Below, in pieces: positions 20,797 through 35,064 of a stretch of 35,064 nucleotides of DNA. Where the stretch lies: positions 1 to 35,064 of the forward strand of contig PWHN01000033.1 in the NCBI GenBank assembly GCA_003554945.1. Direction: 5' to 3'. The notes beneath the pieces were generated by a model. The model was given only the letters and a program-made list of their open reading frames with translations. It had not been told where the DNA came from and searched no databases. The translations under genes were made by a program, and so were the position numbers. The stretch's first letter is position 1, and the number at the start of each line of letters is the position of its first letter. Source of the DNA: a bacterium. GTDB taxonomy: Bacteria > T1Sed10-126.

Positions 20797-21110
20797 TAAT
20801 GGATTAATTATTCACCTATGATAAAATTTTCAGATTATAGAAAGGGCTCTATTGAAATCCTTGCAGAAGATGGGCCACTCAAAGGTGTTGGGACTCATTC
20901 TTGATTGGCCTCCGCCCAATCTCCGAGGTATATCTGGCAATAATCAGATCCTCCAGGATCTATTGCCAGCTATAAATCCGTCAAACACCTTTGAGTAGCC
21001 TAATTAACGTTTATAGATAGCCACATTAAACTGGTAAGTGCAACTTTAGTGATAGTAAAAAGGATTTTAACAGAGCCATAGAAATTGAAATCAAGTGAAG
21101 GTGGCCAAAG
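20797..21110. other. intergenic region upstream of moaC
   Basis: No gene is seen in 314 bases. Most of it is the structured repeat at 20845-21002. The rest is AT-rich, and GAAGGTGG about 8 bases before the moaC ATG is the ribosome binding site. I see no clear promoter. Confidence 0.6.
20845..21002. repeat. structured repeat E1 with three-way-junction potential
   Basis: The arms 20873-20889 and 20984-21000 are 17-base inverted repeats (GGCCACTCAAAGGTGTT and AACACCTTTGAGTAGCC) with one mismatch. Inside lie a small hairpin GATTGG/CCAATC (20903-20921) and a long hairpin 20929-20974, whose outer 13-bp stem has one mismatch and whose inner stem is AGATCC/GGATCT. This gives a closed three-way junction. 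Bases 20886-20965 are identical to 34985-35064. It could be a structured RNA, a regulatory element or a small non-autonomous mobile element. It lacks the conserved T-loop of a tRNA. Confidence 0.8.
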
Positions 21111-34943: not shown

Positions 34944-35064
34944 GGCTCTGTTGAAATCCTTGTTAAAGACGGGCTACTCAAAGATGTTGGGACTCATTCT
35001 TGATTGGCCTCCGCCCAATCTCCGAGGTATATCTGGCAATAATCAGATCCTCCAGGATCTATTG
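34944..35064. repeat. structured repeat E2, cut by the window end
   Basis: The 121 bases align without gaps to 20845-20965. The last 80 bases (34985-35064) are identical to E1, while the first 41 differ at 7 positions by my count. The left arm GGCTACTCAAAGATGTT (34972-34988) is the counterpart of the E1 arm; its partner lies beyond the window. It sits upstream of the paaK operon. Confidence 0.85.

Follow-up and report, generated by a model that had tools for sequence, protein, structure and literature searches.

Introduction

The bcr1-bcr18 repeats of the Bacillus cereus group (PMC3446304, PMC6542083) are, like the element reported here, MITE-like intergenic repeats of 100-400 bp, and bcr1 occurs in high copy number. 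Many bcr copies are transcribed, and bcr10 and bcr18 are predicted conserved structured RNAs. The bcr repeats differ from our element in being lineage-specific and in that the mobility of bcr1 is tied to a TTTAT motif, and they are not known to have a core RNA common to unrelated shells or CsrA-like paired loops. In combining mobility with RNA structure, our element works like some of the bcr elements. The repeats of Borrelia plasmids (PMC2674063) are likewise intergenic, retain RNA-type stems through compensatory changes and are possibly MITEs, but they are simple stem-loops confined to Borrelia plasmids, and their mobility is not shown in that study.

A second point of comparison is with RNAs of the CsrA system. 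The CsrB/CsrC and RsmX/Y/Z RNAs (PMC7652899, PMC4383904) share with the element several GGA hairpin loops, a CAGGAUG-type motif and paired sites. Unlike the element, they are gammaproteobacterial single-locus sRNAs with many loops, are not mobile and have no conserved three-way junction. The CsrB repeat is CAGGA(U/A/C)G, the CsrA SELEX consensus is RUACARGGAUGU, with ligands that favour 6-nt loops and short stems, and the structural CsrA ligand is an ANGGAN hexaloop (PMC7652899); CsrA sites are usually paired (PMC4383904). The flagellin (hag) mRNA leader, which carries two CsrA sites, resembles the element in its C[ANGGAN]G and C[NGGAN]G loops, both of which are seen in the host genome, but it is a cis-regulatory mRNA leader, is not mobile and has no three-way junction. 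Among open-licence papers searched, the Rfam 12 paper alone was returned as mentioning both CsrA and miniature inverted-repeat elements, which is weak evidence of absence.

Results

The window analysed here is a stretch of 35,064 nucleotides, contig 111 of a 2.2-Mb bacterial genome in 121 contigs. The initial annotation described a repeat upstream of moaC that ended at 21002 and was enclosed by 17-base terminal inverted repeats. Comparison of the copies with their own flanks extended the element to 21077, so that it spans 20845-21077 (Table 1), and the 17-base repeats proved to be an internal stem, P1. The ends are GGCTCTRTTGAAATCC...GGATTTYAACAGAGCC, an imperfect terminal inverted repeat of ~18 bp, and they are bordered by an 8-bp target-site duplication (ATAGAAAG/ATAGAAAT). 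The same length was obtained over 17 elements, in which identity between the bases bordering the two ends was highest at exactly 8 bp (73% vs 31% in the control) and 31-42% at all other duplication lengths tried. The sequence GGCTCTRTTGAAATC, together with its reverse complement at the opposite end of copies, was found at 76 sites, as compared with 7 for the reversed control pattern. As a MITE would, the element measures 233 bp, contains no transposase gene and has a core present in ~60 dispersed intergenic copies. From its terminal inverted repeats and 8-bp target duplications, the moaC-upstream repeat is identified as a short mobile DNA element, a MITE. The second copy that had been noticed at the right end of the window is real and has exactly 80 consecutive bases in common with the first (from 20886 and 34985); its right limit is set by the end of the contig and not by biology.

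Table 1. Positions of the element, its second copy and its predicted RNA in the window
Feature	Coordinates	Strand	Remarks
Whole 233-bp MITE copy in family A shell	20845..21077	.	ends common to compared copies; length and target duplication; letters checked
Target-site duplication, left copy, 8 bp, ATAGAAAG	20837..20844	.	7/8 identical to right copy
Target-site duplication, right copy, 8 bp, ATAGAAAT	21078..21085	.	
Left terminal inverted repeat GGCTCTATTGAAATCCTT	20845..20862	.	
Right terminal inverted repeat AAGGATTTTAACAGAGCC	21060..21077	.	
Second MITE copy	34944..35064	.	94% over 121 bases; ends at contig end
Partial RNA of second copy	35064-34980	minus	R3 52.5 bits, truncated match
Structured RNA core, entire P1 stem included	20871..21002, read 21002 to 20871	minus	R1 match 20871-21002; R3 match 20992-20880, 94.2 bits
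Conserved junction strand CGGAUUUAUA: CGG, AUU bulge, P3 start	20971..20980	minus	near-invariant in 9 families and distant homologues
P3 apical loop UGGAG, GGA motif	20951..20955	minus	
Conserved junction strand UAUACCUCGGAG: P3 end, P2 start	20921..20932	minus	
P2 apical loop CGGAG, GGA motif	20910..20914	minus	
Conserved junction strand AGAAUGA, links P2 to P1	20895..20901	minus	

Copies of the core were located with a covariance model (R1), a second core model (R2) and a later model (R3). The 2.2-Mb genome holds 60 core loci with R1 and 63 with R2, about 60 copies instead of the two seen before, and these counts are lower bounds because many contigs, including that of the window at its right end, stop inside copies. 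The copies form nine families, A-I. The sequences of the stems P1, P2 and P3 are unrelated between families, and the junctions (CGGAUUUAUA / UAUACCUCGGAG / AGAAUGA) are near-invariant across all nine.

The families are housed in several unrelated MITE shells. One shell has GGCTCTRTTGAAATCC ends and 8-bp target duplications, and a shell related to it has GGCTTTGTAGAGATC ends and an exact 8-bp duplication, GAAGAAAA, around one copy (L074). Another has CTAAAGTTTTGC ends and is flanked by duplications that measure ~7 bp on visual inspection (for example TAAATTA around L095), and a further shell has TTCCGC ends. Shells without the core are present as well, one of them with an exact 8-bp duplication. 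Their existence suggests that the core is probably cargo and not needed for movement, and the idea that the core is required for transposition is not supported; the core-less shells may be products of deletion after insertion. Transposases of the IS6 and IS1595 families, searched for as possible mobilisers with the same ends, are absent from the genome and are thus ruled out.

Copies are nested within one another, and P2 hairpins have been swapped between families. In family A copies, P2 is replaced exactly by a longer, mobile-looking hairpin, CCGAGCACTCAAT...ATTGAGTGCTCGG (L017 1369-1589, L018 1369-1589, L019 1369-1581, and L020). Because of such exchange between copies, the families are not independent samples. 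In family C copies, a relative of this hairpin was observed to surround the core in its entirety (L072 left flank).

The core corresponds to a predicted RNA of ~110-130 nt. In minus-strand order, P1 leads into GG, whose pairing partner CC lies on the opposite side of P3, then into an AUU bulge of 3 nt and P3 itself; the 3′ strand of P3 bears a GNUU bulge of 4 nt, and P3 is capped by an apical loop. After P3 come UC/GA, a GGA/NA internal loop, P2 with its apical loop, and AUGA, which leads back to P1. The three-way-junction fold recognised earlier was borne out, with a free energy of −58 kcal/mol, a z score of −5.1 and none of 200 shuffles as good. Covariation in the three stems was strong and well beyond the controls, with 196 double-change cells as compared with 65 ± 6 in shuffled and at most 80 in slid controls. 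When distant homologues were added, the values were 297, 87 ± 7 and at most 93, respectively; this alignment was fitted to the model, and model-free MAFFT alignments agree on the covariation. The C-G pair that closes the apical loop of P2 is invariant in a 17-sequence set. With overwhelming covariation in all three stems, the interior is, by comparative sequence analysis, a structured RNA. The initial annotation had proposed either a structured non-coding RNA or a small non-autonomous mobile element. Both parts of that proposal hold at once, since MITE shells enclose a covarying RNA, and the two findings that would have spoken against it, a lack of further copies and a lack of covariation, were looked for and did not materialise. 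Its boundaries, its reading of the inverted repeats, its strand and the tie to moaC that it implied are not supported.

Rfam 15 gave no match at curated score in the window or in the copies of its own genome, and no match for the distant loci at E up to 1. The lack of an Rfam match indicates that the element is not a member of the CsrB or RsmY families. The RNA family, with near-constant junctions and saturated stems, is new to Rfam.

Several observations point to the minus strand as the relevant folded strand. The C-A mismatch noted in the E1 arm is real, and when read on the minus strand it becomes a G-U wobble. When the non-Watson-Crick pairs of P1 are read on the plus strand, there are 27 A-C and 7 G-U events (p 0.0008), and the A-C excess corresponds to G-U wobbles on the minus strand. 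The minus strand folds better than the plus strand in 36 of 45 copies. Among loci whose flanking genes (taken as ORFs) are co-directional, the distant carriers included, the minus-strand RNA is antisense to both genes at 20 and sense at 6 (p 0.009). The G-U asymmetry, the better fold and the antisense bias together argue that the minus strand is under structural constraint, and the structured RNA is probably read from it. No promoter- or terminator-like site was recognised near the element.

R2 was applied to 386 genomes, including that of the window, and matches were found in 4 of the 385 others, which are called other lineages here in the sense that their kinship to the host is no closer than the domain. 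R2 detected five loci in G284 (six with R3), five in G068, and one each in G176 and G124. The best E-values in these carriers ranged from 5e-7 to 7e-18, although covariance-model E-values are rough. The junction is kept in all of these homologues, and the copies of G284 have a MITE-like shell with quite different ends. One G284 copy was observed, in antisense orientation, in a gap of ~500 bases between ftsW-like and murG-like genes (L121 1331-1859), an unusual site for a mobile element. No copy was found in G001, the sole other member of the host's family examined, and the phyla of G284 and G176 yielded no homologues besides those of G284 and G176 themselves. A pattern scan of GTDB contigs gave one match, a family C copy on a 5-kb contig labelled Thermoplasmata (PWHR01000048.1, 1658-1769 minus; L112). 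This contig encodes ExbD- and TonB-like proteins and is therefore probably bacterial, a relative of the host genome that was misbinned. A virus-borne origin was considered and rejected: the pattern hits tested from four IMG/VR scans had no covariance-model match and look like chance, and phage and plasmid records contained no similar DNA.

Both hairpins of the RNA end in short loops with GGA at the center, C[NGGAN]G or C[ANGGAN]G, and the loops are mostly closed by a C-G pair. With apical loops assigned from model-based columns, 55 of 56 distinct RNAs carry GGA in one or both apical loops, and 30 carry it in both. GGA is absent from the P2 loops of families H, I and part of D, and from the P3 loops of family C. 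Among 13 family representatives, identity at the GGA loop positions is 68-100%, as compared with 32-54% at most flanking loop positions and 40-45% in the stems; conservation of the junction is at least as high as that of the loops. The motif CAGGAUG occurs exactly in families D, E and H, and both hairpins of G284 present C[AUGGAU]G. Thus, in sequence both hairpin loops look like CsrA docking sites, although the loops here are mostly 5 nt and the stems long, as compared with the 6-nt loops and short stems of the SELEX ligands.

The host genome encodes CsrA, and its csrA lies between fliW and flagellin genes, the latter two named from sequence. The flagellin leader contains the hairpins UCGAAUC[AAGGAC]GAUUCGA and ACUCC[AGGAG]GGAGU, whose loops are of the same types as those of the element, and the locus therefore provides an internal reference for CsrA sites in the host lineage. 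GGA hairpins were observed in this region (L113 1810-1840, 2264-2305) both after csrA, as AGUCAGC[AAGGAU]GCUGGCU, and in the flagellin leader, and the leader pair is partly kept in G001. Any association between CsrA and the GGA loops is drawn from five carrier genomes. CsrA is encoded by the window's own genome (G000), by G284 and by G068. The search for CsrA gave no hit in G124 (100% complete), and the one RNA of that genome, with GGA in neither loop, is the exception to the 55 of 56; nor did it give a hit in G176 (81% complete), though the RNA of that genome carries GGA loops.

Discussion

The explanation that we favour for the element is that it carries an RNA that mimics the target hairpins of CsrA and serves as a decoy or a recruiter of the protein. 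The form, conservation and pairing of the GGA loops, along with the presence of csrA in the host, led us to propose this role, to which we give an even chance. The MITE would be moved in trans by a transposase, and its cargo, the structured RNA, would be transcribed from the minus strand. The two GGA hairpins would then be offered to a CsrA dimer in imitation of CsrA targets such as the host flagellin leader, making the RNA a CsrA decoy, or, alternatively, CsrA would be brought to the transcripts containing the RNA. As a CsrA ligand, the element would work like CsrB or RsmY. The few copies in which P2 has been swapped for unrelated long hairpins count against a CsrA role, as do the families with GGA missing from one loop, the 5-nt loops and long stems, the GGA loops of G176 in a genome with no CsrA hit, and the failure to recognise a promoter- or terminator-like site nearby. 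Were CsrA bound, mobile elements would be seen to spread decoys of a global regulator, and bacteria that have FliW, the protein antagonist of CsrA, would possess an RNA antagonist as well. The wider proposal, that transposon-borne RNAs across unrelated MITE shells and lineages constitute a class of selfish or domesticated mobile CsrA sponges, is a tentative one, with a prospect short of even. One genome holds ~60 amplified copies of the RNA family, which is also met in other lineages within different mobile shells. As a compact three-way junction with a pair of candidate protein sites, the RNA lends itself to structural work.

Alternatively, the same MITE-borne RNA might serve a partner other than CsrA. 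The GGA loops would then contribute to the recognition of another RNA-binding protein or a ribosome/RNase factor, or to a catalytic or ligand-binding junction. A junction no less conserved than the loops, and one that is kept in G124 without GGA loops, indicates that some of the constraint does not depend on GGA and fits this possibility. What this possibility leaves without account is that, in genomes with CsrA, both loops converge on the form of a CsrA site, an exact one in families D, E and H and in G284. We regard a different partner as possible, but lean against it.

One could also envision that the structure works as single-stranded DNA, with the folded strand recognized by a recombinase or transposase, and that it has no RNA function. 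G-T is the mildest mismatch in DNA hairpins too, so the strand asymmetry of P1 is compatible with a DNA hairpin, and both this asymmetry and the better minus fold could in principle come from single-stranded DNA. The exact exchange of P2 hairpins and the nesting of copies show, in addition, that the core is recombinogenic. On the other hand, the core sits in a number of unrelated shells whose target duplications are ordinary, and target duplications also border shells that lack the core. In addition, bulges and loops show RNA-like conservation, and orientation is biased relative to genes. A DNA-only role is, therefore, unlikely in our view.

A still less probable reading, and a disfavoured one, is that the core is the neutral palindromic interior of a MITE, in which the stems last because the copies are young or gene-converted. 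P2 modules swapped between families do show that hairpins can be inherited whole, and many copies are degenerate or nested, but in nine families and distant lineages the junction and the loop GGA are kept while changes in the stems have reached saturation, and drift would not preserve unpaired residues. Finally, apart from the upstream position, nothing favors the implied tie to moaC as a cis-acting riboswitch or leader, which is scarcely credible given ~60 copies beside varied genes, an RNA strand mostly antisense to its neighbors and no Rfam match, and which as a general role is refuted by the distribution of the copies.

Other repeats were observed beside the copies. A second dispersed repeat, CCCTCTCCCCTGGAGGGAGAGGG...GGGTGAGGGGGA, adjoins several of them (L019, L035, L050 and L057; contigs C47, C57 and C62) and seems to be an unrelated family of intergenic repeats. 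A third such family is suggested by palindromic stretches that surround GGCCGGAATGAC and GGGTCAAGCAACGTCATGCCGG and recur beside several loci (L086 flank, L113 850-930).
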